Positions 10,394 through 61,765 of a DNA stretch of 64,000 nt are shown here, piece by piece. The notes below the pieces were generated by a model, which ran no database searches, was not told the origin of the DNA, and worked only from the letters and a program-made list of their open reading frames with translations. The stretch is from NCBI RefSeq assembly GCF_004137795.1, contig NZ_NWTM01000003.1, positions 1-64,000 of the forward strand. Direction: 5' to 3'. The position numbers and the translations under genes were made by a program. Each line of letters starts with the position of its first letter. Position 1 is the first letter of the stretch. The DNA comes from Pectobacterium zantedeschiae (GTDB taxonomy: Bacteria; Pseudomonadota; Gammaproteobacteria; Enterobacterales; Enterobacteriaceae).

Positions 10394-10407
10394 AAGCCAT
10401 CCTCATT

Positions 10408-10438: not shown

Positions 10439-10501
10439 TTACCTCTACGCGATCGCTAGTGCAGTTAGCGCTCTTTGAAATCGGTTGTAGCACCTATTCA
10501 G

Positions 10502-10888: not shown

Positions 10889-10920
10889 GGTTTCTCCCTT
10901 CTCATGTTGGTATAGAGGAT

Positions 10921-11550
10921 TTATGGCACGGTAAAGCTACTATCGTGTTCTTTTCTGTACCAATAATAGGCACCTTTGGCGATCATTCGCAGTTGCAGCA
11001 CCAGTCGTTCTTCCAGTTGTTTACGCTGTTCCAGAGAAACATCCAGGGCTTCCGCTCCCGCACTGAAAACAATGGTCACCATCGCTTCTGACTGCGCTTC
11101 TGCAAAGCTGCGTGGAATATGGTTTTCCACCTCAAGATAATCCGCCAGTTCAGCAATAAAATGCTGAATCTCGCGTGCAACCGCCGCACGGAAGGCCGCC
11201 GATGTTCCTGAACGTTCACGCAGCAATAGCCGGAACGCATTCGGATTGTTACCGATAAATTCCATGAAGGTGGAAACCGACGTCCTGATTACGCTACCCG
11301 TTTTGGCGATACGTTGCCGGGCCTGCCGCATTAGCTGGCGCAGCATTAACCCGCTTTCATCAACCATTGTCAGCCCCAGCTCATCCACGTCACGGAAGTG
11401 GCGATAGAAAGATGTCGGCGCAATACCTGCTTCGCGAGCGACTTCACGCAGGCTCAAGCTGGCAAAACTGCGCTCAGCGCTTAACTGGCTAAATGCAGCT
11501 TCGATAAGGGAACGACGAGTCCGTTCTTTTTGTTGTGCTCTGACACCCAT
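10921..11550 (-). CDS. fabR: TetR-family unsaturated fatty acid synthesis repressor FabR
   Basis: TetR-type repressor that controls fabA and fabB in response to the unsaturated/saturated acyl pool. The N-terminal HTH ([20 protein letters not shown]) is practically identical to E. coli FabR, and the core including [19 protein letters not shown] is highly conserved. The start at 11550 (MGVRAQQ) gives the family N-terminus; the in-frame codon four residues upstream is less likely. It is divergent from sthA, with yijD downstream. Confidence 0.95.
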
Positions 11551-11761
11551 TATGCTGCCCAAATGATCTCTCCCCTTTCCAGAGGGGCACTATAGCAAAC
11601 TTTATTGTCCGCAGAATGAGACAAAGTTTGCCATATTAAGAATGTGAGAATCTGTTTCCTTATTAAAGGCAGGGATGATTGGGTTCTACCACAGTCGATG
11701 CTACAATCGCACAATGTTACAGTCGCGTTATTAATTTGTATAAAAACAGGTTTAACCTACC

Positions 11762-13168
11762 ATGACTCTAGAACATCAATTCGATTATGATGCCATCGTT
11801 ATTGGTTCCGGTCCCGGCGGTGAAGGTGCAGCGATGGGATTGTCCAAGCACGGTGCCAAAATTGCGGTGATTGAACGTCACTACAATGTCGGCGGCGGCT
11901 GTACCCACTGGGGTACGATTCCTTCCAAAGCCCTCCGCCATGCCGTCAGCCGTATTATCGAGTTCAACCAAAATCCCCTCTACAGTGACAACTCCCGCAT
12001 TATTCGCTCCTCATTTTCCGACATCCTGCGCCATGCCGACAGCGTCATTGGTCAGCAAACCCGTATGCGACAAGGATTTTATGAGCGTAATCAGTGTGAG
12101 CTGTTCTCCGGTGAAGCCAGCTTCATCGACGCCCATACGATTGCGGTTCACTACCCAGACAATACCCACGAAACGCTGACCGCTGCGAATATCATTATCG
12201 CGACCGGCTCGCGTCCGTATCATCCGGCAGAAGTCGACTTCAACCATCCGCGCATTTACGACAGCGACTCTATTCTGCAACTCGACCACGAACCTCAGCA
12301 CGTCATTATCTACGGTGCGGGCGTTATCGGCTGCGAATATGCCTCCATCTTTCGCGGTCTGAGCGTTAAGGTCGATTTAATCAACACTCGCGATAGGCTG
12401 CTGGCCTTTCTCGATCAGGAAATGTCGGATGCGTTGTCCTACCATTTCTGGAACAACGGCGTGGTTATCCGCCACAACGAAGAATTCGAAAGTATTGAAG
12501 GGCTGTCTGACGGCGTTATCGTCAATCTGAAATCAGGCAAAAAGATGAAAGCAGACTGCCTGCTCTATGCCAACGGACGCACGGGCAATACGGAAACGCT
12601 GGGGCTGGAAAATATTGGCCTGAGTACCGACAGCCGAGGTCAGCTCAAGGTCAACAGTATGTACCAGACGGCTCTGGCACATATTTATGCCATCGGTGAT
12701 GTCATCGGTTATCCCAGCCTGGCATCAGCGGCATACGATCAAGGTCGGCTCGCCGCGCAGGCGATCATCAAAGGTGATGCTAGCGCCCATCTGATCGAAG
12801 ATATCCCGACTGGTATTTATACCATCCCAGAAATCAGCTCCGTGGGGAAAACCGAGCAAGAGCTCACCGCGATGAAAGTGCCTTATGAAGTTGGTCGGGC
12901 ACAGTTCAAACATCTGGCACGGGCGCAGATTGTTGGGATGAATGTGGGGAGTTTGAAGATTCTGTTTCACCGCGAAACGAAACAGATTCTGGGTATTCAC
13001 TGCTTTGGTGAGCGCGCCGCGGAGATTATCCACATCGGGCAGGCCATCATGGAACAGAAAGGTGAAGGTAATACTATCGAATATTTCGTTAATACCACCT
13101 TCAACTATCCAACCATGGCAGAGGCTTACCGCGTGGCGGCATTGAATGGACTTAACCGCTTATTTTGA
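11762..13168 (+). CDS. sthA: Soluble pyridine nucleotide transhydrogenase SthA
   Basis: FAD-dependent enzyme that moves reducing equivalents between NADPH and NAD+. It contains the FAD Rossmann motif [13 protein letters not shown], the [19 protein letters not shown] region (a single cysteine, not the CxxxxC pair of dithiol flavoproteins), the NAD(P) motif [12 protein letters not shown] and the ANGRTGNT and AIGDVIG motifs. Length is 468 against 466 residues in E. coli. The 3' end overlaps the convergent oxyR by 9 nt. Confidence 0.96.
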
Positions 13169-14068
13169 CAGGTTTTCCATATAGCCCTGCATATGCTCGC
13201 GGATGGTATCAGCAAGCTGCTCATAGCGTCCGCGCAGCGGTGAACCAGGGCGATACACCAGCGCGATGGTACGTTTAGGCTCCGGTTTATAGCATGGCAA
13301 ATAGCAGACGCCATCACGCTCACGCTCACGCGGAACCGATAACGACGGCAGCAGCGTAATCCCGCTTCCGGCTGCGACCATGTTGCGCAATGTCTCCAGA
13401 CTCGTTGCCCGGAAATGCGTATCTTCATCCGCCCCAGCCTGAAAGCAGAAGCCCATTGCCTGATCGCGCAGACAGTGGCCATCTTCCAGCATCAGCAGCT
13501 TTTCACCCGCCAGATCGGACATCGCTACACGTTCGCGGTTCGCCCAAGGGTGATCCTGATAAATCGCCAGCTTCATCGGTTCGTCAAACAGAGGAACTTC
13601 GATAAAAGCCTCAGACTCTTTCACCATCGCCAGAATGGCGCAGTCCAGTTTGCCGCTGTCCAACTGGGCCAGCAGTTGATGTGTTTGCGCTTCGTGCAGA
13701 TACATTTCAAGCTTGGGGAACGTACGATGCAGCATCGGAATGATTTGCGGCAACAAATAAGGCCCCACGGTGGGAATCAGGCCAATGTGCAGCGGCCCAG
13801 ACATGGTTTCACCCTGCTGGCTCGCCATCTCTTTTAATACCTTGACCTCACGTAATACCGTTCGCGCTTGCTCAACCAACAGCAGCCCAGCCTGCGTAAA
13901 TAGTACCTTACGACTGGTTCGCTCCAGCAGCATTACCCCGAGCTCATCTTCCAGTTTACGAATCTGTCCACTGAGTGTTGGCTGACTTACATGGCAGGAA
14001 TCCGCCGCACGCCGAAAATGACGATGCTCCGCCAGCGCGACAAGATACTCTAAGTCCCGAATATTCAT
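13160..14068 (-). CDS. oxyR: Hydrogen-peroxide sensor regulator OxyR
   Basis: LysR-family activator of the peroxide regulon. It has an N-terminal HTH ([20 protein letters not shown]) and the redox cysteines nine residues apart in [12 protein letters not shown], equivalent to Cys199 and Cys208. The in-frame opening extends 25 codons upstream, but the ATG at 14068 ([10 protein letters not shown]) gives the conserved N-terminus and 302 residues. It converges on sthA with a 9-nt overlap. I could not recognise the divergent OxyS RNA that flanks oxyR in E. coli. Confidence 0.96.
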
Positions 14069-48629: not shown

Positions 48630-49388
48630 TCAGGCTTCAACGGTATCCGCCTGATGCAGCGCCTGACTGACTGCTTGGCGTTGCTCCAGCAAGGCGGTGC
48701 TGGTTCGGTCGCGAGGATAGGCCAGATTGACCGGAAGAATTGCACTAATCCGACCGGGCCGGGGTGACATGACGACCACTCTGTCCGCCAGAAACACGGC
48801 TTCTTCCACATCATGCGTCACCAGCAAGATCGTCAAATCCGTTTGCTGGCGAATCTCCGCGAGACGTTCCTGCAACTGCTGTTTGGTCAGCGCATCAAGC
48901 GCGCCGAAAGGTTCATCCAGCAAGAGAATGCGCGGCGTCGATACCAGCCCACGGGCGATCGCCACACGCTGTGCCATCCCGCCTGACAGCTGATGCGGCC
49001 ATGCATCGGCAAAACCTTCCAGTCCCATTATCTGAAGATAATGGACAATTCGCTGCGCAATTTCCGCAGGAGAAAGATTGAGATTGAGCATACCGAGGCG
49101 AATATTGCCCGTCACGGTGAGCCACGGAAACAGTCGCGGCTCCTGAAACACCAGACTGACCTCATCGGGAATGCCATTAACAGGCCGATCGCCAATCAGA
49201 ATACGTCCTCGTCCAGTGGTATCAATCCCGGCAGCCAAACGCAACAGCGTCGATTTACCACAGCCGCTGGTACCGATGACCGCAACCAGCTCACCAGCAT
49301 GCAGCGAGAGGTCAATGTCCTGTAACACCGTCAGAGGGGCTCCGTTGACGGTAAAATGTTTGGTAATGTGCTGAAAATGCAGGGACAT
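48630..49388 (-). CDS. NitT/TauT-type ABC importer ATP-binding protein (SsuB/TauB-like)
   Basis: ATPase with Walker A GTSGCGKST, Q-loop VFQEPRLFPWLTV, signature LSGGMAQRVAIARGL, Walker B ILLLDEPFGALD and VTHDVEEAVFLADRV, the pattern of sulfonate/nitrate/taurine importers. The start at 49388 follows GGAGAATCT; an earlier ATG at 49409 overlaps the permease stop (ATGA) and is a real alternative. Last gene of the operon tonB, exbB, exbD, permease, ATPase. Confidence 0.9.
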   Translation of the reverse strand: MSLHFQHITKHFTVNGAPLTVLQDIDLSLHAGELVAVIGTSGCGKSTLLRLAAGIDTTGRGRILIGDRPVNGIPDEVSLVFQEPRLFPWLTVTGNIRLGMLNLNLSPAEIAQRIVHYLQIMGLEGFADAWPHQLSGGMAQRVAIARGLVSTPRILLLDEPFGALDALTKQQLQERLAEIRQQTDLTILLVTHDVEEAVFLADRVVVMSPRPGRISAILPVNLAYPRDRTSTALLEQRQAVSQALHQADTVEA

Positions 49389-49405
49389 AGATTCTCCGTT
49401 AACCG

Positions 49406-51016
49406 TCATGCAAAGCGCCAGCGGGTCAGCCGCCGTTCCGATAGGGTAATCAACCGGGAAAAAAGCGCGGCCACCACCGCAATCAGCACCACACCGGCCA
49501 TAATGCGATCGGATTCAAGCAGTTGTTGCGCGCGAATCATCATGCCGCCCAACCCCTCTCCCGACGGCATGAAATACTCGGCACCAATCGCCCCCGTCCA
49601 CGCATGCATCAACGCCAGCCGTAAACCGGAAAACATCGGCGGTAACACGCTGGGCAGTATCAGCGTGCGGAGCGTCTGCACTGGCGTCAGACGCAGAACC
49701 TGCGCCACTTCCAACAGCATGGGCGGAAGCTGGGCGATTCCCTGACGGGTCGCCAGCATGACGGGAAAGAATGCCGCTACAGCGATAAACACGATTTTGG
49801 CACTCTCGCCTAAACCGAACCAGGCTGTGATCAGCGGCAGCCAGGCAAATAGCGCCACACAGCGCAAGGCGGACAACGCCGGATTAAACAGCCTGTCGGC
49901 GATGCGCCAGCCACCGAGCAACGCACCAATCAGCACGCCGATAGCGCTTCCCAGCATGAAACCCTGTAGCGCACGCAGCAAACTGGCATTGAGATCGGCC
50001 CACAGCCCGCCTTGAATCAACCCCGACCACAGCGCGTCAACCACGCTACTCGGCGCGGGAAGGAAAGCCACGTTCACCCACTGGTGGGTACTGCTCATCT
50101 GCCATAGTACAATCAGTACTAATGGCGCGAGCCAAGGCGTCAGAGACAGACTCGGCAGCGCATAGCTCAGGCTATCACGCCCCAGTACTGGCGCAGGCCA
50201 GTGAATCCAGCGACGCTCCAGCTTCAGCAGCACGCGTTCCCCGGCAAACCCCAGTATTCCAATGATCAGAATGCAGACGAACACCAGATCCAACATGAAC
50301 AACTGGCGGCTTTGAACCAACAGATAGCCCAGTCCTTCGCTGGATGCCAACAGCTCAACCGCAATCAAAGCGACCCATCCGGTAGAAAATGCCAGCCGCA
50401 CGCCCGTCATCACATACGGCAGCATCGCAGGTAAAATCAGATAACGCAGGAAGGCAGCCTGTGATAAACGCAGACTACGCGCCATTTCGTGCAGTTTTTG
50501 TGGCGTCTGTTGAATACCGGCACAGGTATAGAGCGTCACAGGCACCGTGACCGATTTCACCAGCACCACCAGCTTCAGCGCTTCACCGATCCCCAGCGAC
50601 AACATCAAAAGCGGGATCCAGGCTAACGTCGGGATCTGTGCGATGACGGTAAATAGCGGCATAAACAGCGCATTCAATCGTCGATTCAGACCGAATAGAC
50701 TGCCCAATACCAGACCCAGCACGATACCGCCGCTAAAACCAATCACCAGCCGCATCAGGCTGATGGGCAACTGGTGAATCAACTCTTCGGGGATAAAAGC
50801 CCGTGCGCTATCGATGACCGCCAGTGGTGAAGGCAGGATTTGCTCAGACATCCATCCGTGCCAGCTAGCAAGCCACCAGCCCGCAAGTACCAGCAGCGGC
50901 ACGACAAGCGATACAGTCAGTGAAATAACCAGCGCAGAATGTCCGGCCGACAGCGCAGCAGCGGTCAGAGAAGTATCAGGGGCTGAACGTATCCGCAGCG
51001 GAGATTTGGGCATCAT
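49406..51016 (-). CDS. Fused double-domain NitT/TauT-type ABC permease
   Basis: A 536-residue membrane protein made of two SsuC-like halves in tandem. Each half has its own set of hydrophobic helices and a coupling motif: MARSLRLSQAAFLRYLILP in the N-half and VAQVLRLTPVQTLRTLILP in the C-half. Usual permeases of this family are about 260 residues and homodimerise; here one chain should form the whole pore. The frame also allows a TTG six codons upstream, but the ATG at 51016 is likelier. It follows exbD by 20 nt. Confidence 0.9.
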   Translation of the reverse strand: MMPKSPLRIRSAPDTSLTAAALSAGHSALVISLTVSLVVPLLVLAGWWLASWHGWMSEQILPSPLAVIDSARAFIPEELIHQLPISLMRLVIGFSGGIVLGLVLGSLFGLNRRLNALFMPLFTVIAQIPTLAWIPLLMLSLGIGEALKLVVLVKSVTVPVTLYTCAGIQQTPQKLHEMARSLRLSQAAFLRYLILPAMLPYVMTGVRLAFSTGWVALIAVELLASSEGLGYLLVQSRQLFMLDLVFVCILIIGILGFAGERVLLKLERRWIHWPAPVLGRDSLSYALPSLSLTPWLAPLVLIVLWQMSSTHQWVNVAFLPAPSSVVDALWSGLIQGGLWADLNASLLRALQGFMLGSAIGVLIGALLGGWRIADRLFNPALSALRCVALFAWLPLITAWFGLGESAKIVFIAVAAFFPVMLATRQGIAQLPPMLLEVAQVLRLTPVQTLRTLILPSVLPPMFSGLRLALMHAWTGAIGAEYFMPSGEGLGGMMIRAQQLLESDRIMAGVVLIAVVAALFSRLITLSERRLTRWRFA

Positions 51017-51036
51017 GATCGTCGGTATCCGCAACG

Positions 51037-51438
51037 TTATTTTTGCGTCAGCAGGGATAGTCGGGTAATCCCCGCCTGCTCAACATCGGCCAGCAACGCG
51101 GCAACATCACCGTAATTCGCTTCTTTATCCGCCTGCACCTGCACGATCAGATCCGCATTACCTGCTTTAGCCTGTTGTAGACGTGGCACCAGTTGTTCCC
51201 GCGCCAAGTTTTCTTTATTGATGAAGACACGCTGTTCACCATCAATGCTAATAACAACCGGATCGGTGCGATCGACCGGGGCCACCGCCGCTGTTTTTGG
51301 TAACTGAATAGGAATGGCATTGGTCAGCATCGGCGCAGTAACGATAAACACCACCAGCAATACCAGCATGACATCCACGAGCGGCGTGATGTTCATTTCA
51401 CTCATGACGTCGTCATCATTACGCGAGGTAAACGCCAT
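51037..51438 (-). CDS. ExbD/TolR-family proton-channel subunit
   Basis: A 133-residue protein with one N-terminal membrane segment containing the essential aspartate (NITPLVDVMLVLLVVFIV, about residues 16-33) and a periplasmic domain. It should form the proton-driven complex with the ExbB homologue and power the TonB next to it. It starts 1 nt after the exbB stop, so the genes are translationally linked. Confidence 0.92.
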   Translation of the reverse strand: MAFTSRNDDDVMSEMNITPLVDVMLVLLVVFIVTAPMLTNAIPIQLPKTAAVAPVDRTDPVVISIDGEQRVFINKENLAREQLVPRLQQAKAGNADLIVQVQADKEANYGDVAALLADVEQAGITRLSLLTQK

Positions 51439-51439
51439 T

Positions 51440-52156
51440 TCAGACCACCTCTCTCAGGTTCTTCACGGAGAAAGCGGCAGACGATGACTCCGCACCGGTG
51501 TGAAACGCGCTGACATGAAAATCGTGCGCCTGCATCACGCTGTAGACATCATGAGCGAAGTCATCCATGTCTGCGACGGCCAGCTTAAGACGACGCAAAA
51601 AGTAGTTGTAGATCAGTACCGCAGGAACCGCGACAGCGATCCCAACTCCAGTGGCTATCAACGCATTACCAATCGGCCCCGCGACAGTGTCGAGACTGGC
51701 AGAGCCAGAAAGCCCGATCTCCTGCAACGCCGCCATAATGCCCCAAACGGTACCAAACAGGCCGATAAACGGCGACGTACTGCCAATACTAGCCAAAACC
51801 GCCAGCCCGCTTTCCAGCGAGCGGCGTTCGCGTTGAATCTGCTGTTGCAGCGCACGCTCAACCCGATCGGGCAGATGAATATTCAGAGCAAGCTGCCCGC
51901 TAATCCGCTCCGGCGCTTTGACCGCAGCCAGCGCCAAATTGGCGAGTGAACCAGGCTGTTTTGCGCTGGTTTCTGGCGTCTGGCTGACATCAGCCTGCTG
52001 CCAGAAGGCCTCGCGAAAACGTCGATCGCGCCGCTGCGCGCGCCCATATTGGACGAACTTCAGTAGCCCCAGTCCCCAGGTGACGAGAGAAAATAGCAGC
52101 AGCAACAGGATCACCGCGCCTTCCGCAGAAAAGAGTTCAATGTGTCCAAGCGTCAT
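51440..52156 (-). CDS. ExbB/TolQ/MotA-family proton-channel subunit
   Basis: A 238-residue membrane protein with one N-terminal helix and, after a cytoplasmic loop, the conserved pair of helices around ASIGSTSPFIGLFGTVWGIM and NALIATGVGIAVAVPAVLIYN. Start at 52156 has GAGGT upstream; a TTG two codons earlier is possible. It partners the adjacent exbD and tonB genes. Confidence 0.92.
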   Translation of the reverse strand: MTLGHIELFSAEGAVILLLLLFSLVTWGLGLLKFVQYGRAQRRDRRFREAFWQQADVSQTPETSAKQPGSLANLALAAVKAPERISGQLALNIHLPDRVERALQQQIQRERRSLESGLAVLASIGSTSPFIGLFGTVWGIMAALQEIGLSGSASLDTVAGPIGNALIATGVGIAVAVPAVLIYNYFLRRLKLAVADMDDFAHDVYSVMQAHDFHVSAFHTGAESSSAAFSVKNLREVV

Positions 52157-52166
52157 AACCAATACC

Positions 52167-53021
52167 TCATGAGTTCAGCGAAAAATCGACAGGAACAACG
52201 ACCCAGCCGCTAACCGGCTGACTGCCGCGACGCGCCGGAACAAAAGACCAGCGCAGCACCGTATCTCTGGCGGCCTCATCAAGTGACGGATAGCCACTTG
52301 ATTGATGAATACGGATGGTTTGCACTTTGCCGTCGGCACGTACCTGCACGTTCAACAGCACAGTGCCTTCATAGCCGCGGCTAATCGCCACATCGGGATA
52401 AGACGGTGCGGGGTTATGCAGGTAGTCGGCATTAGCGAGCGGCGGTGTCAACGGTGCGTCAACGGGCTGCGCGACTGCGTTTTGCGCCACCGGCGTTGGC
52501 GTTATCGGTGCTGTTGCGGTTTCCTTCTGGGATTGCACCGTCGGTTTGGGCGCGGGAGTGCTCTTTTTCACCGGCGTCTTTTTCGGTACAGGTTCAGGTT
52601 TTTTCTCCGGTACTTTTTTTTCCGGAGCAGGGGGCAGCAATGCATTTTCATCCACCTGCGGCTCAGTTATCGTTGGTTCTTCCACCTGTTGTGGCGTCGG
52701 CATCTCAGGTTCAGCAACCGGAACAACCTCTTGCTGCACAGGTTCTGCAACCATAGAAACCAGCTCAACGCTGACAGGCTGCGGCCGAGCAGGCACCGTA
52801 ACGGGCGGCGTCGACGCGGCGTTGAACAATGCAAGCACCCCGGCGTGCAATAGCAGCGTCGCTACCACCGCCAGCCAGCGCTCCGGTCGGGACGAGGGCG
52901 TCGTATTCAGATGCGGTAAGCGCTGCTGCACCGCACCACTTACTCGGCTAGCATGCGGCGTTGGTTCCGGTGAATAAGACCGGGGTATCGGCGCGGCTCC
53001 CGCATAGAGTAATTCCGTCAT
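52167..53021 (-). CDS. TonB-family energy transducer dedicated to this locus
   Basis: A 284-residue TonB homologue. It has an unusually long cytoplasmic N-terminus (about 47 residues) before the membrane segment (WLAVVATLLLHAGVLALF, about 49-66, with the conserved His), then a Pro/Glu/Lys-rich spacer and a C-terminal TonB domain (NPAPSYPDVAISRGYEGTV to WVVVPVDFSL). First gene of the operon, with a GGAG ribosome site. Likely specific for the divergent TonB-dependent receptor. Confidence 0.92.
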   Translation of the reverse strand: MTELLYAGAAPIPRSYSPEPTPHASRVSGAVQQRLPHLNTTPSSRPERWLAVVATLLLHAGVLALFNAASTPPVTVPARPQPVSVELVSMVAEPVQQEVVPVAEPEMPTPQQVEEPTITEPQVDENALLPPAPEKKVPEKKPEPVPKKTPVKKSTPAPKPTVQSQKETATAPITPTPVAQNAVAQPVDAPLTPPLANADYLHNPAPSYPDVAISRGYEGTVLLNVQVRADGKVQTIRIHQSSGYPSLDEAARDTVLRWSFVPARRGSQPVSGWVVVPVDFSLNS

Positions 53022-53465
53022 GATGGGTTGCTCCTGACAATATATCTTTATCGCCCTATTTCACGTTGCAGGTGTCAATGACTATGTCGCCTGAAATAGC
53101 GTTGGGATAATCGATTCTTCCCGACTATTTAATAAAGTCAACGTATGTATCTGCATATCGATATTCATTTCATTCTTTATTTCTTTAATAAGACGATAGC
53201 GTTAATAATCGACATTCAGACTAAAGGTAAAAATTACCGCCAGGCTAATGCATAGTTGGAATAGTTTTTTTTCGTTCGCTGCATATTGATGAAATAGACG
53301 ATGAATACTGATTTAGCTATTTACTAACAATAATAATGCTTTTTTTGTATTAGTCAGTTTATTGCCAAGCCTTTAAATGTGGTGCTGCACACGATATGAC
53401 GCCGTTCGAAACAGGCGCAATAACACAATTCCTATTCATCAATTTCATTACTGGCGGGTAAAATA
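53022..53465. other. AT-rich divergent control region of the TonB/ABC locus
   Basis: A 444-bp gap between divergent tonB and the binding-protein gene, AT-rich especially at 53100-53380. I see no open frame. Candidate short dyads and A/T tracts are present, but nothing I can assign to CysB, Cbl, Fur or the local LysR regulator with confidence. Both operon promoters should lie here. Confidence 0.6.
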
Positions 53466-54473
53466 ATGACGACATCAGGACGAAAATGGTTAGTAACCAG
53501 CTTATTGGCAATGGGTATGGCCTGGTCAGGCGTCGCATCAGCGATCACCGAGATTCGAATTGCCGCGCCAGACATTGGCGCGGGTACAAAACCCAGCGGC
53601 GGCGGCTTGCTCGACGTCATCCACAGCCAGAAGCTGCTGGAACGCGAGTTTAGCAAAGATGGGATCAGCGTGCGTTGGACGTTCATCAAAGGCGCAGGCC
53701 CCGTCATCAACGAAGCATTCGGCAACCATCAGGTCGATGTGGCCTATTTGGGGGATTTAGCCAGCATTATTGGCCGTTCGCGTGGTCTGGATACCCGCGT
53801 GATCGCCGTAGCCTCACGCGGTATCAATCACTATCTGGCAGTGGCGAAAGGCTCCGGTATTGAAAAAATCCCCGATCTGAAAGGCAAACGTATCGGGCTC
53901 TTTCGTGGAACGGCTGGCGAGCTTTCCTTCGTCAGCGCGCTCGATTCTCAGGGCCTGAAGCCCTCTGACGTTAAGCTAATTAATCTCGATTTCGCGGCGG
54001 CCAGCGCGGCGTTAGCTGCCGGACAGATTGATGCCACCTGGGGCGGCAGCAATACGCTTTCACTACGGGATAAAGGGCTGGCAGACATTCCATTATCCAG
54101 CCGCGATTTAAACGGTGCGGGTCAGCTAAGCGGCTTCCTGTTGGTGGATGAGAAATTTGCCAAAGGCAACGAGGATATTCTTCGCCGCTTAGTCAAAGTT
54201 CAGCGAGAAGCAGCAAACTGGGCTAGCGCTGATAAAAATAAAGACGAATTTATTCAGCTATTAGCTACCCAATCGGGTTATCCAGAAAATATATTACGCG
54301 TCGAATGGGATACATTGCCGCCATTAACCGAGCGTCTTTCACCCGAATTGGATCCCGCCTTCGTAGAAAAATTAAAACGTGCCGTCACATTGGCCTATGA
54401 ATCGCGTCTTATTCGGCAACCTTTTGATGTCGATAAATGGCTGGATGATTCTTATCTAAAAGCAACGCAGTAA
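53466..54473 (+). CDS. NitT/TauT-type periplasmic binding protein (SsuA/NrtA-like)
   Basis: A 335-residue binding protein with a Sec signal (hydrophobic residues 8-25, cleavage after VASA), then TEIRIAAPDIGAG and the family hallmarks NEAFGNHQVDVAYLGDLASI, DLKGKRIGLFRGTAGELSFVS and AAGQIDATWGG. This family binds sulfonates, nitrate, taurine and related anions. The cognate ATPase and fused permease lie in the divergent operon. Ligand unknown; the partner TonB receptor implies something too large or scarce for porins. Confidence 0.9.
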   Translation: MTTSGRKWLVTSLLAMGMAWSGVASAITEIRIAAPDIGAGTKPSGGGLLDVIHSQKLLEREFSKDGISVRWTFIKGAGPVINEAFGNHQVDVAYLGDLASIIGRSRGLDTRVIAVASRGINHYLAVAKGSGIEKIPDLKGKRIGLFRGTAGELSFVSALDSQGLKPSDVKLINLDFAAASAALAAGQIDATWGGSNTLSLRDKGLADIPLSSRDLNGAGQLSGFLLVDEKFAKGNEDILRRLVKVQREAANWASADKNKDEFIQLLATQSGYPENILRVEWDTLPPLTERLSPELDPAFVEKLKRAVTLAYESRLIRQPFDVDKWLDDSYLKATQ

Positions 54474-54503
54474 TTAACTCCCCTAAAAAATGATAACCCA
54501 CGT

Positions 54504-54526
54504 ATTGCCGTGAATTTCACGGCAAT
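54504..54526. other. Hairpin between the binding-protein and receptor genes
   Basis: ATTGCCGTGA and TCACGGCAAT pair perfectly over 10 bp around ATT. There is no T-tract, so it is not a classical terminator. It may set the relative mRNA levels of the binding protein and the receptor by stabilising the upstream message. Confidence 0.5.
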
Positions 54527-54558
54527 CGGCAGCGTATTGACTACATTCGGAAGAAGCT

Positions 54559-56829
54559 ATGTATTTTAAAAAACACCAGCAGTATTTAAAAAAACACCAG
54601 CGAAAAATAACATCAGGTATTTTAATGAGCTGTGTCTTAACGCTTCCTGCTATAGCACGAGCAGCCGATCCGCAAGTCACAGCGGAGAACGTTCCACAAA
54701 CCGAGGCAACAACCGCCGCCCCCGTCCAGTTGAAACGTGTAAAAGTGAACGCCCAGCGTGCGCCTGTTCAACCGCCGACTACGCTGGCATCAGTGATTGA
54801 CGGCAAAACGCTCGAAGAAGAGCGGATATACCGCTTTGAAGAGCTGTCACAGCTCGTGACGGGGCTGGATGTTGATACCGTTGATGTGATGGATACCACC
54901 GTCACCATCCGTGGGATTGGTGATGGTGGCGAGAGCGGCACCAACATCGGTATGCCGGGTAGCGTGGGCCTGTTTGTCGATGGCGTCTACTTATCACGCC
55001 CCGGCGTCATCTCTAACGATTTGCTGGATATCGACAGTACCCGCGTGTTGAAAGGCCCACAGGGTGCCGCTTACGGCTTTAATACCACTGGCGGTGCGAT
55101 TGACATTCGCACCCGCAAACCCACCTTCACACCCGAATATTCACTGGAACAATCGTTCGGACAGCGCGGCTACCTGCAATCCAAACTGATGGCTTCTGGG
55201 CCACTCAGCGACCACTGGGCAGGCCGTATCAACCTGTCCCGTACCGAACGCGGTGGAAACGTCACGAATATCGAAAATGGCCATAAGCTTGGAGGCAGTA
55301 CCAATAACGGCGTGCGCGGCCAGTTACTTTATCAGCCCAATGACAGCTTTAGCCTCAGAATTACCGGTGACTACAGCGATTCCACCCAGCGCCCCGTCTC
55401 GGTGTTGGTGAGCGCAACTGACGCGTTTCGTACTCGCGCGGAACAGACAGGCCTCAAGGTCGTCAGCGGTCGTCAGGTCGCCATGGATGACGAGAACGTG
55501 ATTCGCGTTGCACAAGGCGGCGGCTCAGTAGAGGCCAACTGGAAGCTGAAAAACGGCTATAGCGTCAACTCTCTGTCATCACTGCGCTATTTCCGTGTGT
55601 TACCCAGCACAGCAGATAACTGGAATATTCCGCTCTACCACGACAGCGGTGCCGATGTACGCGATCGCGTCTGGTCGCAAAGCTTTTGGCTGGACTCACC
55701 CAAAGGCAATAAATTTGATTATTCACTGGGCGTCGATTACTGGGGAGAGAACCTCGATACCGAGGCAAACAGTCGCTACTACAACGACAACCGCGTACGG
55801 ACATGGGTAGGAAATGGCTATCAGGGCATTAACGTGCAGCGCTTTGGCACGTTAGATGACACCGTTTATTCCGTCTATGGCCGTGGAACCTGGCACGCTG
55901 CCGATAAACTGGATGTCATTGTCGGCCTGCGCCAAACCTATGAGAAAAAGGAAGGGACATTTGTTCGCAAAAACCGTGCAACCTTTGACTCCGGCCCGCT
56001 TTCGCAAACCAACCGCCTGCCTTCTGGCTCCATCAGCCTGAACTGGTTCGCTGCACCGAATGTCACCCCTTATGCCACATTGGGCTATGGGGAAAAATCC
56101 GGCGGCCTGAACGTATCGTCCGGGGCGGCAAGGCAGTTGGGGATAGACTCGTTATACGTCGATCCAGAGAAAACCCGCTCTGCGGAATTGGGCGTTAAGA
56201 CACACTGGCTACAGCGTAAAGTAGAGTGGAATACCGCGCTGTTCTGGAGCGTGGTCGAAGATTTCCAAAATAACGCCTATGACGAAGAAACAGATACCAG
56301 CTATCTGATTAACGCTGGGAAATTTCGTTCACGCGGCGGGGAATCTCAGTTGACACTACGCCCGCTTGACGGCCTGAGTATCAGTCTCGCCGGTACTGTT
56401 CTGGATACCAGCTACCTGAATTTCCCTAACGCCCGCTGCCCGGCAGAAATCTCCGCCGTCTCGTGCGATATGTCAGGAAAACGCGTCTTTAAATCCCCGA
56501 CGCTGAGCTACAACACACGCGTGCGTTATCAATGGGATACGCCAAATAACCTGCAAGCCTCGGTTTCCGGTCAATGGTCATGGCGTAGCTGGGCCTACGG
56601 TACACTCGATGATTCCGAGAGCAATCGCATTCCATCGTATGGCGTCCTGAATCTGTCTAGTGGACTGAGCGGCAAGCAAGGCGACAACCGCTGGAACGTA
56701 TCGCTATGGGTAAAAAATGCGCTGGATAAAAACTACTACCGCTCCGTCAGAGGCTCCAGCGCCACAACGGGCGTGATTGGCGAACCGCGCATGGTCGGCA
56801 TATCCGTCGGTTACGACTTCAAGGGCTGA
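54559..56829 (+). CDS. TonB-dependent outer-membrane receptor
   Basis: A 756-residue receptor. It has a long signal peptide (hydrophobic core about residues 18-33, cleavage near ARA), a TonB-box-like LKRVKVNAQR (about 58-67), a plug domain with TVTIRGIGDGGESGT, VGLFVDGVYL and GPQGAAYGFNTTGGAIDIRT, and a 22-strand-type barrel. It lacks siderophore-synthesis neighbours. The N-terminus carries a duplicated FKKHQQY/LKKHQRK stretch from a 21-bp direct repeat. It precedes the Tat-exported enzyme gene by 4 nt. Confidence 0.93.
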   Translation: MYFKKHQQYLKKHQRKITSGILMSCVLTLPAIARAADPQVTAENVPQTEATTAAPVQLKRVKVNAQRAPVQPPTTLASVIDGKTLEEERIYRFEELSQLVTGLDVDTVDVMDTTVTIRGIGDGGESGTNIGMPGSVGLFVDGVYLSRPGVISNDLLDIDSTRVLKGPQGAAYGFNTTGGAIDIRTRKPTFTPEYSLEQSFGQRGYLQSKLMASGPLSDHWAGRINLSRTERGGNVTNIENGHKLGGSTNNGVRGQLLYQPNDSFSLRITGDYSDSTQRPVSVLVSATDAFRTRAEQTGLKVVSGRQVAMDDENVIRVAQGGGSVEANWKLKNGYSVNSLSSLRYFRVLPSTADNWNIPLYHDSGADVRDRVWSQSFWLDSPKGNKFDYSLGVDYWGENLDTEANSRYYNDNRVRTWVGNGYQGINVQRFGTLDDTVYSVYGRGTWHAADKLDVIVGLRQTYEKKEGTFVRKNRATFDSGPLSQTNRLPSGSISLNWFAAPNVTPYATLGYGEKSGGLNVSSGAARQLGIDSLYVDPEKTRSAELGVKTHWLQRKVEWNTALFWSVVEDFQNNAYDEETDTSYLINAGKFRSRGGESQLTLRPLDGLSISLAGTVLDTSYLNFPNARCPAEISAVSCDMSGKRVFKSPTLSYNTRVRYQWDTPNNLQASVSGQWSWRSWAYGTLDDSESNRIPSYGVLNLSSGLSGKQGDNRWNVSLWVKNALDKNYYRSVRGSSATTGVIGEPRMVGISVGYDFKG

Positions 56830-56833
56830 TGTC

Positions 56834-59608
56834 ATGGATAAGATGACCTACTCACGCCGCCGCTTCCTGCGCGACAGCACGCTGCTGGCGCTGTCAGCAC
56901 CGTTCTGGAAACCTGCGATCGCCGCACCTTTCACTGCGGCCTCCAACCATGCTGGCGGGGCCGCACCGCAAGTCAGCCTGCACTGGTTGGACGGACAGGT
57001 GCCTCACGCCTTCAGTGGCGTAACCTGGGGCGTACCCTGGCCGCAGGGGGTCGTACGCAGCGATAGCGACTTCCAGTTACAGGGCACCCAGCAGCAGGTT
57101 TACGACCTGCAAAGCTGGCCGCTGGCACGCTGGCCGGACGGCTCGATTAAATGGTCGGCACATGCGTTGGGCGGCGACACGCCGCCACAAGACACACTCG
57201 TTCTCCGGCCGACAGCCAAAGCAGGCGTGCCATTGGGTGTCGGAATGGTCAGCGAGCACGATCGCGGCTGGACAATCGATACCGGCCATATTCGCTGCCT
57301 GATTCCACGCTCAGGCTCCCGCCTGATTGAAGAAATCTGGCGGGATAATCGTCTGGCGTTAACCAACAGCAGGCTGGTATTGCGCATGCAGCGAGGCGCC
57401 GAGACGGACAGTACGCTGACACAGGACACCTATCAGGGCGAGATCGACACGGTAACGGTGGAGCAAAGTGGGCCACAGCGCACAGTGATTGCGCTACGCG
57501 GTACACACCATACGCAGCAGCAGGGGGTTACGCGCATCCCCTTTGTTATCCGGCTGTATAGCTATGCGAATACCGACTCGCTGCGCGTGGTACACACCCT
57601 GATCTATGACAACGATGACGATCGGCTCAGCCTGAAAGGGCTTGGGTTAGCGTTCGACATTCCACTAGAGGGGGAGTTGCACGATCGACACGTACGCTTC
57701 GTCTCGGATCAAGGCGGACTCTTTCGTGAAGCGGTACGCGGCCTGAGCGGGTTACGTCGCGATCCCGGTGCTGCCGTTATCGCGGCACAGTTGGCCGGGC
57801 AGGCCACGCCGCCGATAGCAGAGTTTTCACCGGAGGTCAGCAAACGGCTGGATTATATCCCCGCGTTTGGCAGCTACCGCCTGACTCAGCATCATCCCGA
57901 TGGATTCCAGATCCATAAACGCACCGCAGCCGGACAGGGTTGGCTGCTTTCAGCCACGGGCGAACGGGCAGCGGGCGTCGGCTATCTGGGCACGCCGAAA
58001 GGCGGCGTGGCGTTCGGCCTGCGCAATTTCTGGCAGAGTTACCCCGCCAGTCTGGAAATCGACAATGCCCACACCGACGTGGCGACCGTCACGCTCTGGC
58101 TGTGGTCACCGTGGGCAGAACCGATGGATATGCGCTTTTATCATGACGGGCTCGGTCAGGATAGCCATGACAAACAGCGCGAAGGGCTGGCGATAACCTA
58201 TGAAGATTACGAGCCCGGTTTCGGCTCCGCCGTTGGCGTAGCACGCACCAGTGAACTGTTTATCGATATTCTGCCCGCGACGCCCGACGCAGAAAATCTG
58301 GTGAATCGAGCACGACGTATGCAGCAACCGCCGCTGCTGGTGGCGGATGCACAAGATCTGTACCGTGCGCAGGCGTTTGGATCGATGTGGGCACCGGCCT
58401 CTGCCACAACACCCGCCCGAACCAGTCTGGAGCAACAGTTGAGGGCATATTTCGACGCCTACCAGCAGGAGGTCGAACAGCGAAAATGGTATGGCTTCTG
58501 GGATTTCGGTGACGTCATGCATACCTATGACAGCGACCGTCACGTCTGGCGCTACGATGTGGGCGGCTACGCGTGGGATAACTCAGAACTGAGTACCGAT
58601 CTGTGGCTCTGGTATTACTTCTTACATAGCGGACGCGCCGAGGTGTTTCATATGGCGGAAGCCATGACACGCCACACTGGTGAGGTCGATGTGCACCATT
58701 TGGGACGCTTTAGCCCGTTAGGATCTCGGCACAATGTCCGCCACTGGGGCGACAGCGCCAAACAGTTGCGTATTTCTACCGTCGCCAACCGCCGTTTTCT
58801 CTACTACCTCACCGCCGATGAGCGTATCGGGGAATTGATGGATGAACAGGTTGAAGCATTGCGCACGCTAAGCGCGGTGCTGCCCGGTCGCAAAATCGGC
58901 CAGACACATCCCGATAACCCAAACCATATCAGTCTGGGTTTCGGGACCGACTGGGGGGCCGTCGCTGCCGCGTGGCTCACCGCCTGGGAACGCCACGGCG
59001 ATCCAGCGATGCGCGAACGCTTGCTAAACAGTATGCAAACGCTGGCCGCTCAGCCACACGGTTTTTTCACTGGCAGCGCAGCCATCGATCCCGATACCGG
59101 CAGATTTCTACCCGCGCCTGTGGGTAAGGTAGAAATCTCACACCTCAGTGCAGTATTTGGTCTGACAGAAATCTGTAGTGAGCTGGTTGAGGTGCTGCCC
59201 GATCCTGCCTTTAAACGCGCATGGCTCGACTACTGTCGACTGTATAACGATCCCATCGCGTTAAGTGCAGCCGTTGGTAAAACGGTGAAAAAACTCAACC
59301 TGGCTCAAGGTCATGCCCGACTGACCGCCTTTGCTGCACGACAGTTGAACGATCGTACGCTGGCGCAGCGCGCGTGGGTAGAATTTACCGCAGGCAGCGG
59401 CGGCATTGCCAACCCGATGCTCACGCAGAAACGCCTGACGCCCCCTGACGTGCTCTACCCCATCAACGAGCCGGTGATTAACTCCACCATTGATAAACAT
59501 TCCGGCAGTACCACCGCGACCAATCTGGCGACCAACGCTGTTGCACAGTGGGGATTAACCGCCATCGCCCTACTTGCCGTGCTGGATGACATTCCTCCTT
59601 CTTCTTAA
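56834..59608 (+). CDS. Tat-exported PL26/YetA-like (PcRGLX family) protein, possible exo-rhamnogalacturonan lyase
   Basis: A 924-residue protein. The N-terminus has a twin-arginine motif (YSRRRFLRDS, residues 6-15) and a hydrophobic stretch ending near AIAA, so it is exported folded. I read the rest as the three-domain PcRGLX/YetA layout: N-terminal RIFT-barrel (HWLDGQVPHAFSGVTWGVPW), central beta-sandwich, and C-terminal alpha/alpha toroid with WYGFWDFGDVMHTYD and WDNSELSTDLWLWYYFLHSG. That family includes exo-rhamnogalacturonan lyases (PL26). Activity here is inferred, not shown. Start at 56834; the frame extends into the receptor gene without support. Confidence 0.75.
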   Translation: MDKMTYSRRRFLRDSTLLALSAPFWKPAIAAPFTAASNHAGGAAPQVSLHWLDGQVPHAFSGVTWGVPWPQGVVRSDSDFQLQGTQQQVYDLQSWPLARWPDGSIKWSAHALGGDTPPQDTLVLRPTAKAGVPLGVGMVSEHDRGWTIDTGHIRCLIPRSGSRLIEEIWRDNRLALTNSRLVLRMQRGAETDSTLTQDTYQGEIDTVTVEQSGPQRTVIALRGTHHTQQQGVTRIPFVIRLYSYANTDSLRVVHTLIYDNDDDRLSLKGLGLAFDIPLEGELHDRHVRFVSDQGGLFREAVRGLSGLRRDPGAAVIAAQLAGQATPPIAEFSPEVSKRLDYIPAFGSYRLTQHHPDGFQIHKRTAAGQGWLLSATGERAAGVGYLGTPKGGVAFGLRNFWQSYPASLEIDNAHTDVATVTLWLWSPWAEPMDMRFYHDGLGQDSHDKQREGLAITYEDYEPGFGSAVGVARTSELFIDILPATPDAENLVNRARRMQQPPLLVADAQDLYRAQAFGSMWAPASATTPARTSLEQQLRAYFDAYQQEVEQRKWYGFWDFGDVMHTYDSDRHVWRYDVGGYAWDNSELSTDLWLWYYFLHSGRAEVFHMAEAMTRHTGEVDVHHLGRFSPLGSRHNVRHWGDSAKQLRISTVANRRFLYYLTADERIGELMDEQVEALRTLSAVLPGRKIGQTHPDNPNHISLGFGTDWGAVAAAWLTAWERHGDPAMRERLLNSMQTLAAQPHGFFTGSAAIDPDTGRFLPAPVGKVEISHLSAVFGLTEICSELVEVLPDPAFKRAWLDYCRLYNDPIALSAAVGKTVKKLNLAQGHARLTAFAARQLNDRTLAQRAWVEFTAGSGGIANPMLTQKRLTPPDVLYPINEPVINSTIDKHSGSTTATNLATNAVAQWGLTAIALLAVLDDIPPSS

Positions 59609-59643
59609 GGCCGCCCCCCGGCGGCACGTTACAGGACATCATC

Positions 59644-60336
59644 ATGATTGACCCAAGCTGTACTGAAAACACGCTCCTTCTATCGCCGCAGGTAAACGGC
59701 ACGCGTGACATCATCGGTTCCCCGCACCGTTCGGCGCTTATCTGGTCCACAGATTCCACCGGTCAGCCACTACAGTGGCAGGTGGAGCAGGAAGATCCTG
59801 ACCGCACGGCGATCCAGACCACGCCTGAACGCCTAACGCTAGAGAGCGCCGCTGGGCTAACACTTTGGCTGGATGCTCCGCTTTCTGGCACCTATCGCAT
59901 CGCCTTCACGCGGGAAATTCTGGTCGCAGAGCGCCCTTATGACCGTGTGTCCGATCTGAATCAGTTCTGGGCTGCACGCGACCTGCACCGCCCGAACCTG
60001 TTTACCCGGCACGGTAAGCTCAACGAATATGACAGCCTGAACTTGTACTATGTCGGAATGGGCGGCAACTGGAACAGCACCACGCGCTTTCGTTATTACG
60101 ACGGTCATGGTGAGCGCCTGCTGCTTGGCGAATACACTGATGCTGCGCATCTGCTACGCCCTAATCATCGCTATCGCATCGTGATTGAAGTGGATCGGCA
60201 GGAAACGCGTTTCTGGGTCGATGATGTGCTCTATTTCCACGCGAGCTACCCGAATACGCCGGCTCCGGGCTATTTCGGTTTTCGGACGGTATTTTCACGT
60301 CAGGAAATCAGCGAGTTCAGCATCACTCCGCTGTAA
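59644..60336 (+). CDS. DUF6250-like protein, probable beta-sandwich
   Basis: A 230-residue protein without signal peptide or membrane segment. The C-terminal half (RVSDLNQFWAARD, YYVGMGGNWNSTTRFRYYDG, APGYFGFRTVFSR) matches what I know of DUF6250, a concanavalin-like beta-sandwich often found beside polysaccharide-degrading genes. Function unknown; a carbohydrate-binding or glycan-processing role is inferred from the neighbouring PL26-like gene. It ends inside the convergent LysR gene (14-nt overlap). Confidence 0.65.
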   Translation: MIDPSCTENTLLLSPQVNGTRDIIGSPHRSALIWSTDSTGQPLQWQVEQEDPDRTAIQTTPERLTLESAAGLTLWLDAPLSGTYRIAFTREILVAERPYDRVSDLNQFWAARDLHRPNLFTRHGKLNEYDSLNLYYVGMGGNWNSTTRFRYYDGHGERLLLGEYTDAAHLLRPNHRYRIVIEVDRQETRFWVDDVLYFHASYPNTPAPGYFGFRTVFSRQEISEFSITPL

Positions 60337-61252
60337 GCGACGCAGGCGCGCCGTGCAGGTCACTATCGACCTGCACGAAAGTATCAATCAGCTTACGTGC
60401 CAGCAGAGACAGACGGGCATCCGCCAGATAAATAATGCCGTAATGGGTATAAAATTCGTCGGTGTTGTCGTCCAGACCCGCAATCTTCAACATATGAATG
60501 CCGTGCCGATCGGGCTCGTTGAAATGATTGGTCGTCCCGATAGCATCCGAATGGCGCACCACGTCCAGCAGACTATAGCCATTCTCACACTCAATACTGG
60601 TGCGAATATCCAGTTTACCGCTCAGTTGCACCAGTGCACGATGCAGGTTGGGTGGGCGGATCGTTGCTGCCAGCGGATAGGAAAAGAACTGCTCGACGGT
60701 AATCTCTTCCTGCGCCGCCAACGGGTGTCCGCTACGGCAGCAAAATCCCCAGCGATGCTGGCTCAGCGGCTGGACACGATAGCGGGTATCGAATTCAAAG
60801 TTACGCATGTCTGCCACGATGAAATCCAGTTCTTCGGCCATGAGCCGATGGCCCAGCGCCTGCCAGTTATCAACGCGAAAGACCATTCGTACCTTAGGGT
60901 ACAGCCGAGAGAAAGCCCCGATCACCTGCGGCATCAGCCACGCGGCGGGTGCAGGACCGCAGCCAAAATTCACTTCGCCCGCCTCTTTCTCATTGAACTG
61001 CTGAATATCATTAAACAGGTCGTGTGTCTGATTAATCAAACGACGTGCGTGCTCCAGCACCACCAGCCCTTTCGGCGTCGGTTCCAATTGGTTCATGCGA
61101 TCGATCAGGCGGGTGCCGATGGTCTGTTCCAGCGACTGGATGCTGCGGCTGAAAGCGGACTGTGACAGCTTCATCGCCTGTGCCGCCGACGTAAAATTGC
61201 GATGCTCAATCAGGGCAATAAAGTGGCGCAGTTGGCGAAGATCGATATTCAT
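60323..61252 (-). CDS. LysR-family transcriptional regulator of the TonB/ABC locus
   Basis: A 309-residue LysR regulator. It has HTH FTSAAQAMKLSQSAFSRSIQ (about residues 20-39) and a periplasmic-binding-like effector domain with FGCGPAPAAWLMPQVIGAF and LDFIVADMRNFEFDT. It is convergent with the DUF6250-like gene, overlapping by 14 nt at the 3' ends. Position at the edge of the locus makes it the best candidate regulator; its effector is unknown. Confidence 0.88.
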   Translation of the reverse strand: MNIDLRQLRHFIALIEHRNFTSAAQAMKLSQSAFSRSIQSLEQTIGTRLIDRMNQLEPTPKGLVVLEHARRLINQTHDLFNDIQQFNEKEAGEVNFGCGPAPAAWLMPQVIGAFSRLYPKVRMVFRVDNWQALGHRLMAEELDFIVADMRNFEFDTRYRVQPLSQHRWGFCCRSGHPLAAQEEITVEQFFSYPLAATIRPPNLHRALVQLSGKLDIRTSIECENGYSLLDVVRHSDAIGTTNHFNEPDRHGIHMLKIAGLDDNTDEFYTHYGIIYLADARLSLLARKLIDTFVQVDSDLHGAPASLTAE

Positions 61253-61765
61253 GGCAGCAATCGGCGTGTCATCAGGACGGAAGGAATTTGCAGGCTAGCA
61301 GGTCTGCTCGTGCAGAAAAAATAATAAAACCGATTTTTATATTCTTGCTGGTTATATATCTAAGGCGGTTGATGTAATGGGGGGAAGCAACGGAGATAGC
61401 ATCTCCACTTAGTGCTGTCTCTTGATCATATGTTTTATATAGCCTGGGGAATAGTTTCGTGCGCGATAATGACGTTATTTTTATGCTACCTCGTAGCACG
61501 CGCCCGACACGGGACGGCTCAAACGCCGCTCGCCCCGTGACCCCAGGCTTTCGGCGGAAATTATGCCGCTGAAGCGGTGCCTTCGTCGATACCCAGCTTT
61601 ACGGACCGCTTGCGACACGCTCCCTGCGTGGCGCAAGCTTGAGCCGCGTCCATGCGGCTCATCCTAAACTAGCTATCTCCTCAGCATAATTTTTTACGCC
61701 GGATAACGGCAAAACCAGCAAAACTTGTGTAGTCGCCATTCAGCGAAAACATCAACTTTCCTAGA
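61253..61765. other. Intergenic region between the LysR gene and pfkA
   Basis: A 513-bp gap dominated by copy 2 of the dispersed structured element (61411-61716). The first about 155 bp should hold the LysR promoter; the last about 50 bp before the pfkA stop show no clear terminator, so the element itself may end pfkA transcription. Confidence 0.65.
61411..61716 (+). repeat. Dispersed structured element, copy 2
   Basis: A 306-bp block homologous to 15742-16045, in the same orientation. It begins CTGTCTCTTGATCATATGT, close to the inside end of IS50. Hairpins: 61484-61498 (TGCTAC stem, CTC loop), 61552-61568 (CGGC/GCCG around AATTAT), 61608-61638 (GCTTGCG/CGCAAGC stem, A-G mismatch, CACGC/GCGTG) and 61640-61661 (TGAGCCGC/GCGGCTCA, loop GTCCAT). 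Stems differ in sequence from copy 1 but keep length, mismatch and loop. No coding frame is convincing. Confidence 0.85.

Follow-up and report, generated by a model that had tools for sequence, protein, structure and literature searches.

What does a compact Pectobacterium locus take up when it combines its own TonB-ExbB-ExbD genes, an ABC importer and a polysaccharide lyase? We analysed a 64,000-nt stretch of DNA (the window), in which ten genes at 48630-61252 form a cassette, with all families above the Pfam cut-offs. The layout proposed in the first-pass annotation, ten genes in two divergent operons, was borne out by the coordinates and the Pfam families: an ATPase-fused permease-exbD-exbB-tonB operon on the minus strand faces away from a plus-strand operon encoding a periplasmic binding protein (SBP), a TonB-dependent receptor (TBDR), a PL26 enzyme and a DUF6250 protein, and a LysR gene is convergent with the latter. 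The features are as follows (start codons were chosen mechanically).

48630..49409, minus strand: ABC ATPase, AtsC/SsuB-like, 259 aa (Pfam ABC_tran)
49406..51034, minus strand: fused ABC permease, AtsB-like, 542 aa (two BPD_transp_1 stretches; tree)
51037..51438, minus strand: exbD (Pfam ExbD, 102.9 bits)
51440..52162, minus strand: exbB (Pfam MotA_ExbB, 117.8 bits)
52167..53021, minus strand: tonB (Pfam TonB_C)
53022..53465, no strand: divergent promoter region, 444 bp (sequence)
53341..53363, no strand: conserved element, putative regulator site (20-mer comparison)
53466..54473, plus strand: periplasmic SBP, SsuA/AtsR-like, 335 aa (Pfam NMT1; tree)
54559..56829, plus strand: TBDR, kin of receptors beside ats-type clusters, 756 aa (Plug and TonB_dep_Rec barrel; tree)
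56834..59608, plus strand: PL26 (PcRGLX-like) lyase with twin-arginine motif, 924 aa (PcRGLX 1st, 2nd and 3rd domains)
59644..60336, plus strand: DUF6250 protein, predicted lectin-like fold nearest YesU (Pfam DUF6250, 206.9 bits)
60323..61252, minus strand: LysR regulator (Pfam LysR; tree; operator match)
61314..61332, minus strand: PhoP operator, exact copy of a printed one, 61 bp upstream of the LysR start

The ATPase and permease genes overlap by 4 nt, and the following gaps in this operon are 2, 1 and 4 nt. In the other operon the PL26 ATG at 56834 lies 4 nt past the TBDR stop and DUF6250 starts 35 nt downstream of PL26, while the convergent LysR and DUF6250 genes overlap by 14 nt. The flanking genes are tpiA, aguA and aguB on one side and pfkA and fieF on the other. 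The cassette had been placed between tpiA and pfkA, which is correct, but aguAB also lie between tpiA and the cassette.

The first-pass annotation held that the two operons belong together, and non-co-occurrence was looked for among 147 sampled relatives. PL26 was found in 21 of them and a permease ortholog (89% or more) in exactly those 21. All ten genes had matches, in one order, in 20/20 fetched same-genus regions. Both PL26 and the permease ortholog are absent from the same four of 25 same-genus genomes, and one empty site was found. Three further enterobacterial genera carry the cassette in the same order with different flanks, one of them without the ATPase. The gene order kept within the genus and across these three genera argues that the cassette is not a chance assembly. 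Accidental joining of the two operons was rejected on their joint presence, their joint absence and this order. The further proposal that the locus is dedicated to one substrate stands only in part: the operons are co-inherited, but the fetched Paraburkholderia and Oxalobacteraceae stretches have TBDR-PL26-DUF6250 with no cassette-type SBP or fused permease found, and in nine of ten Pseudomonas versions neither a fused permease nor tonB-exb was found over about 37 kb. These absences suggest that the ABC transporter may have a different role. One Paraburkholderia region (L115) instead carries a taurine-type ATPase and a partial match to a permease, along with a downstream TauD gene.

By Pfam, the cassette holds a complete TonB-dependent set (receptor with plug and barrel, TonB, ExbB and ExbD). 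Six TonB_C matches in the genome pass the cut-off, the weakest only reaching it, and one of the five outside the cassette adjoins an exbB and an exbD (40% and 33% identity). The earlier suggestion that the cassette set is dedicated, not general-purpose, agrees with this second tonB-exbB-exbD set, and a housekeeping role was rejected on the same matches.

In trees, LysR, SBP, permease, ATPase and TBDR each fell nearest to parts of ats/sft-type clusters among the rows tested, the outside rows being mostly from ats-type clusters, the roots midpoint roots and no characterised ats/sft sequence being included. An ats-type cluster in the same genome (L161) reads LysR-AtsR-AtsBC-arylsulfotransferase; the cassette ATPase is 59% identical to the ATPase of this cluster, and the cassette permease is 48% identical to its own paralog at G000:C3:1824576. 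The sulfate-ester cluster of Pseudomonas putida is sftR-atsRBC-sftP. Like the ats/sft clusters, the cassette has a LysR regulator, an AtsR-like SBP, a fused AtsB-like permease and an AtsC-like ATPase, plus a TBDR as in Pseudomonas. Unlike them, it has PL26, DUF6250 and its own TonB-ExbB-ExbD, and no sulfatase or arylsulfotransferase was found by Pfam among its ten genes. From these comparisons the cassette looks like a refitted ats/sft-type sulfate-ester uptake system in which PL26 and DUF6250 replaced the sulfatase/sulfotransferase. The SBP exceeds the Pfam NMT1 cut-off (75.4 bits, cut-off 20.5) and stays below that of the SsuA subfamily model TIGR01728 (147.4 bits, cut-off 163.5); its predicted structure (pLDDT 62.1) is too weak for pocket analysis. 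In the accessible portion of PMC4079955, sftP, atsR, astB, ExbB and ExbD of Dickeya dadantii 3937, and sftP and astB of P. carotovorum WPP14, appear as predicted host-interaction genes; by names and numbering, not by sequence, these may be the cassette locus. PMC10580964 and PMC12581299, in the portions available, deal with different receptors and with sulfur starvation in general. Our literature search found no study of the cassette locus as an RG-I system.

The lyase gene points to a probable substrate. A 924-aa PL26-like enzyme with a Tat signal had been predicted; we found 924 aa from the ATG at 56834 and the twin-arginine motif SRRRFLRD. The three PcRGLX Pfam domains (N-terminal RIFT barrel, beta sandwich and alpha/alpha toroid) are above cut-off, the third at 569.5 bits. 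The match to the solved enzyme PcRGLX (PDB 5xq3) scores 751 bits and aligns residues 46-906 of 924, so that the cassette enzyme shares the three domains of the PL26 (PcRGLX, YetA-like) family over nearly its full length. It differs from PcRGLX in its twin-arginine export motif and in the position of its gene beside a TonB receptor and an ABC importer. The fungal relative reportedly has exo-lyase activity, going by the title of a 2018 structure paper in FEBS Lett that PMC7596534 cites, and we predict from it that the cassette enzyme is an exo-RG lyase acting on RG-I. The DUF6250 protein has a predicted lectin-like fold with YesU as nearest neighbour and is fused to PL26 in four Oxalobacteraceae; inspection of the Pectobacterium sequence revealed no visible signal peptide. 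Paraburkholderia versions carry an additional PL4 RG lyase. Because PL26 matches the fungal exo-RG lyase, DUF6250 is YesU-like and found fused to PL26, and PL4 occurs in Paraburkholderia, we regard a fragment of RG-I as the probable substrate. The first-pass annotation had suggested a sulfonated, sulfated or glycosylated plant compound; RG-I has better support than a sulfonate.

Other RG-I systems differ from the cassette in gene content. YesU and RhgT are placed in a Bacillus subtilis RG-I setting in the available part of PMC6120924. Like the cassette, the B. subtilis yes/yet RG-I region has a YesU-fold protein, and B. subtilis, a control in the 147-genome search, also gave a match to the PL26 domain; unlike the cassette, the yes/yet region has no outer membrane step. 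This region, of which we take YetA to be a part, uses other ABC transporters. Soft-rot bacteria have the rhiE-rhiT-rhiN RG pathway, which serves the same polymer with different genes and, to our knowledge, includes no PL26 or TonB receptor. As in the PULs of Bacteroidota, a TonB-dependent receptor is tied to carbohydrate enzymes, but no SusD-type family was found by Pfam among the ten genes. Elsewhere the genome holds candidates for an RG-pathway endo-lyase (one PL4 gene), MFS importer and GH88/105. The presence of an RG-type MFS importer candidate speaks against the RG-I reading.

We put at roughly 50% the probability that the cassette is a self-contained uptake system for RG-I fragments, built by refitting ats/sft-type sulfate-ester uptake. 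RG-I oligosaccharides would be freed outside the cell by an endo-lyase and pulled across the outer membrane by the TBDR, energised by the cassette TonB-ExbB-ExbD. Working by beta-elimination in the periplasm, the Tat-exported PL26 enzyme would trim the oligosaccharide ends together with a partner, the YesU-like DUF6250 protein, which may cross via the Tat system as a PL26 passenger. The SsuA/AtsR-like SBP would bind the small anionic product and pass it to the fused-permease ABC transporter for import. We infer the substrate, the compartment of DUF6250, the direction in which material flows and, most of all, the SBP ligand. The NitT/TauT binding proteins that have been characterised bind small anions rather than sugars, which speaks against the RG-I reading.

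The operator upstream of the regulator gene gives a probable identity for the regulator. The PhoP operator of sftR OA04_43750 (2.34-fold) printed in the accessible part of PMC7843439 matches exactly at 61314..61332 on the minus strand, upstream of the cassette LysR. By this match the cassette LysR is very probably SftR of P. versatile. It probably controls the cassette, and would itself be under PhoPQ. The element at 53341..53363 is a candidate site: the best 20-mers in one region from each of the three other enterobacterial genera keep 17, 20 and 18 of 20 bases (sum 55; shuffled maxima 40-43). It was not convincingly found in ten Pseudomonas upstream regions: the best match on either strand was one base better than the highest of 20 single-strand shuffles in three regions, level with it in one and worse in six, so the element is enterobacterial at best. 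An element common to the cassette and ats-type promoters is marginal (25 versus shuffled 22-23). The consensus of a pectin-regulator (KdgR-like) box gave best matches with two or three mismatches at varying places in 27/27 promoter regions, unshuffled and none convincing, which counts against the RG-I reading.

It is possible, though unlikely, that the cassette still does the ancestral ats/sft work of scavenging sulfur. It would then import a plant glycoconjugate bearing sulfate or sulfonate, and PL26 and DUF6250 would do no more than remove the glycan, which lets the part with the sulfur fit the SBP and ABC transporter. The tree neighbours of the five transport and regulator genes and the arylsulfotransferase cluster in the same genome fit this explanation. 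The Pseudomonas dryadis cassette lies next to atsRBC-type genes and an ASST, and in region L261 MetQ and a 2OG oxygenase adjoin it. Sulfur-acquisition genes flank several relatives' versions, an observation that goes against the RG-I reading. Sulfur markers (taurine, cystine, MetQ, DmoA-type and others) occur no more than 10 kb from PL26 in 10/14 regions versus 3/20 random Pseudomonas regions, but some of the markers had been chosen from four of these 14 regions and the controls were all Pseudomonas while four test regions were Paraburkholderia; the count is 6/10 without those four, 4/8 without two near-identical kin as well, and 3/8 versus 0/20 for matches above 30% identity only. Some markers belong to general amino-acid uptake or broad monooxygenase families. 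The ten genes include no sulfatase, the Pectobacterium flanks named above are not sulfur genes, and the Paraburkholderia PL4 RG lyase also counts against sulfur scavenging.

Two loosely joined systems are likewise improbable: TBDR-PL26-DUF6250 would import and trim RG-I fragments, and the SBP/ABC part would import a different co-released small molecule, e.g., an ester-bound aromatic acid or another side-group. The Paraburkholderia and Oxalobacteraceae core without the cassette SBP/ABC agrees with such a division, as does an esterase (BD-FAE) near PL26 in 6/10 Pseudomonas regions. Against it, the genes of the set are passed on together in Enterobacterales and are also lost together in the sampled genus (apart from the ATPase absent in one genus), and there is no esterase among the ten Pectobacterium genes. 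A further, rather doubtful reading would be two-membrane sulfur mining of pectin, in which the lyase frees the sulfur-bearing end of sulfur-decorated RG-I-type fragments, or of a rhamnosyl-uronate-organosulfur conjugate, for ats-type ABC import; if true, a polysaccharide lyase serves sulfur, not carbon, nutrition and sulfated pectic material of land plants is a bacterial sulfur source. It is very improbable that the cassette is a siderophore or general TonB locus in which a lyase gene landed by chance: the TBDR matches the TonB-siderophore subfamily model (136.8 bits, below the cut-off of 223.5) and the pesticin receptor in PDB (75.8 bits), but the cassette has no iron-type SBP, the genome has the five other TonB_C matches, and the PL26-TBDR linkage spans gamma- and beta-proteobacteria.

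Both the proposed ats/sft-type origin of the transport and regulator genes and the RG-I fragment substrate would be new. The cassette is a compact, co-inherited locus with steps from the outer membrane to the cytoplasm and a dedicated TonB-ExbBD, and it suggests that exchanging the enzyme can turn an organosulfur uptake system to a new use. DUF6250 gains PL26 as a partner, YesU as its neighbour in fold and a passenger route open to testing, and whether a NitT/TauT-type SBP can take a sugar acid becomes directly testable. For soft-rot bacteria, the cassette is an additional candidate route for the pectin backbone, with its regulator under PhoPQ.

The locus at 48630-61252 has ten genes, a pair of divergent operons plus a LysR gene in convergent orientation, and is flanked in the window by tpiA-aguA-aguB on one side and pfkA-fieF on the other.

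Minus strand: operon tonB-exbB-exbD-fused permease-ATPase, with gaps of 4, 1 and 2 nt followed by a 4-nt overlap
Plus strand: operon encoding a periplasmic binding protein (SBP), a TonB-dependent receptor (TBDR), a PcRGLX-like polysaccharide lyase (PL26) and a DUF6250 protein

The named matches place the window in Pectobacterium: loci of P. betavasculorum and P. carotovorum, with PL26 matches of 92% and 88%, have an identical gene order. Of 147 genomes (the window genome and relatives), 21 contain PL26, and every one of them belongs to the genus of the window. A permease ortholog (at least 89%) is present in exactly those 21 genomes, the next matches being at most 49%. All ten genes were matched, in the same order, in 20/20 regions from the other carriers, in two of which some genes are damaged or incomplete (L050, permease and PL26; L049, LysR, 67% covered). 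In these regions tpiA/aguAB adjoin the ATPase gene in 14/20 and pfkA is seen in 18/20; the fetched stretches of the remaining regions do not contain them. PL26 and the permease ortholog are both missing from four of the 25 same-genus genomes, and none of the ten genes lies on the cassette side of pfkA in the four cassette-free stretches (2.4 to 13.6 kb). One cassette-free genome shows an empty site, with aguB about 280 bp beyond pfkA. Another cassette-free pfkA-aguB site (L278, 1890-5189) holds a 416-aa frame, levansucrase-type by eye, and smaller frames. The first-pass annotation had proposed the two operons and the LysR gene as one locus, with the doubt that the operons might not occur together; the shared presence, kept order and joint absence establish the locus as a real, co-inherited unit.

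Among 392 sampled Enterobacteriaceae, ten genomes from four genera carry PL26. Six regions from three other genera (two of them, L260 and L264, with genes in pieces) keep the ten-gene order, except that the ATPase gene is missing in three of one genus (L261, L262 and L263). These cassettes may borrow an ATPase from another ABC system. In L261 a diguanylate cyclase gene adjoins the permease gene. The flanks differ in these genera, since tpiA, aguA, aguB and pfkA were not seen in any of the six 20-kb stretches. The fragmented genes in the L050, L260 and L264 copies could reflect recent loss or assembly faults.

In wider samples PL26 is found in 10/398 Pseudomonas genomes, 4/144 genomes of the Paraburkholderia genus and 4/369 sampled Gammaproteobacteria (one is the window genome and three are weak). 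TBDR-PL26-DUF6250-LysR is present in all ten Pseudomonas regions, the SBP in nine and a BD-FAE esterase in six, one of which is the query source. Only P. dryadis (1/10) carries tonB-exbB-exbD and a fused permease with ATPase; its permease groups with AtsB-type rows. Some other Pseudomonas regions, e.g., G890, show weak partial NitT-type matches farther away. A second SBP, fused permease and ATPase of ats type directly adjoin the P. dryadis cassette (L083, 1343-4958); a single permease may therefore serve both binding proteins. All four Paraburkholderia regions contain PL4, DUF6250, FecR, TBDR and PL26 (the PL4 and FecR queries were taken from one of them), two contain exbD-exbB-tonB and none of the four has a cassette-type SBP. 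L115, one of these four, carries a taurine-type ATPase, a partial match to the permease and TauD downstream. A FecR-type gene adjoins the PL26-linked receptor in L110 (assigned by Pfam) and in L115, G933 and G1053 (assigned by similarity); regulation in Paraburkholderia may therefore work through surface signalling rather than LysR. Because it is found across the Pseudomonas and Paraburkholderia regions, TBDR-PL26-DUF6250 is the inner core; it is joined by SBP and LysR in Pseudomonas and Enterobacterales, and the dedicated permease and energiser complete the cassette in Enterobacterales.

PL26 aligns to PcRGLX, a fungal exo-rhamnogalacturonan lyase of solved structure, across nearly its full length. 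In 25 of 80 PL26 loci (kept from at least 571 confirmed) DUF6250 was detected, at most 1 kb from PL26 in 20 of them and chiefly in Bacteroidota and Proteobacteria. In 4/4 Oxalobacteraceae frames scanned (L097, L127, L143 and L108) the two form a single open frame with both Pfam domain sets, and the fusions start with twin-arginine-like motifs by eye. By a simple hydropathy measure, seven stand-alone DUF6250 proteins of Pseudomonas/Enterobacterales read from ATG, the window's included, lack a strongly hydrophobic start (peak values 0.16 to 1.49); all 11 others have one (at least 1.9), including one gammaproteobacterial protein (Povalibacter, L106). DUF6250 may be exported piggy-back with PL26. 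A glycan-binding role is likely because its predicted structure is nearest YesU, followed by CBM66 and legume-lectin-like folds.

A paralogous cluster is found in the window genome (ats names assigned here):

C3:1815500-1835400, 6571-13225 (L161): LysR-AtsR-AtsB-AtsC-arylsulfotransferase, the last fused to a thioredoxin domain

In maximum-likelihood trees (midpoint roots, only four Pectobacterium rows, rows covering less than 70% of the query dropped), single clades are formed by the PL26-linked LysR proteins (100/100, 19 rows), SBPs (97/95, 18 rows) and gamma- and betaproteobacterial TBDRs (100/99, 25 rows), and by the enterobacterial cassette permeases (100/100, nine rows). The nearest outside rows to the PL26-linked clades come from ats-type clusters, which also supplied most of the outside rows. 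Resolution is poor in the ExbB tree, whose bootstrap had not converged, and some forks of the ATPase tree stay open. Six TonB_C matches in the genome pass the cut-off, the weakest only just, and one of the five outside the cassette adjoins exbB and exbD (40% and 33% identical to the cassette's). Therefore the earlier concern that the cassette set might be the only one falls away.

According to PMC7843439, sftR (OA04_43750) of P. versatile is activated 2.34-fold by PhoP, and its best operator is printed. This 19-mer occurs with zero mismatches at 61314-61332, directly upstream of the cassette LysR gene; it is exact in 17/20 same-genus regions (1, 1 and 3 mismatches in the remaining three) and was not found in L161 at up to three mismatches. 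On this evidence the published SftR is very probably the cassette LysR. The same paper places the only likely SftR operator between atsR and atsBCA (data not shown), which argues against the cassette LysR acting on the cassette's own promoter, unless the published motif came from the ats lineage.

A sulfur role is kept alive mainly by the PL26 neighbourhood. Sulfur-acquisition markers, partly taken from the tested regions, occur no farther than 10 kb from PL26 in 10/14 regions, against 3/20 regions picked at random from the same Pseudomonas genomes (controls without Paraburkholderia). The count is 6/10 without the four source regions and 4/8 also without two near-identical kin; with matches above 30% identity only, it is 3/8 vs 0/20. 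In the enterobacterial L261, a MetQ-type lipoprotein and a 2OG oxygenase adjoin the cassette. This neighbourhood is suggestive, not decisive. The cassette parts are of known kinds in a new variation: a probably ats/sft-derived two-membrane uptake system with a PL26 lyase, most likely for rhamnogalacturonan I fragments.
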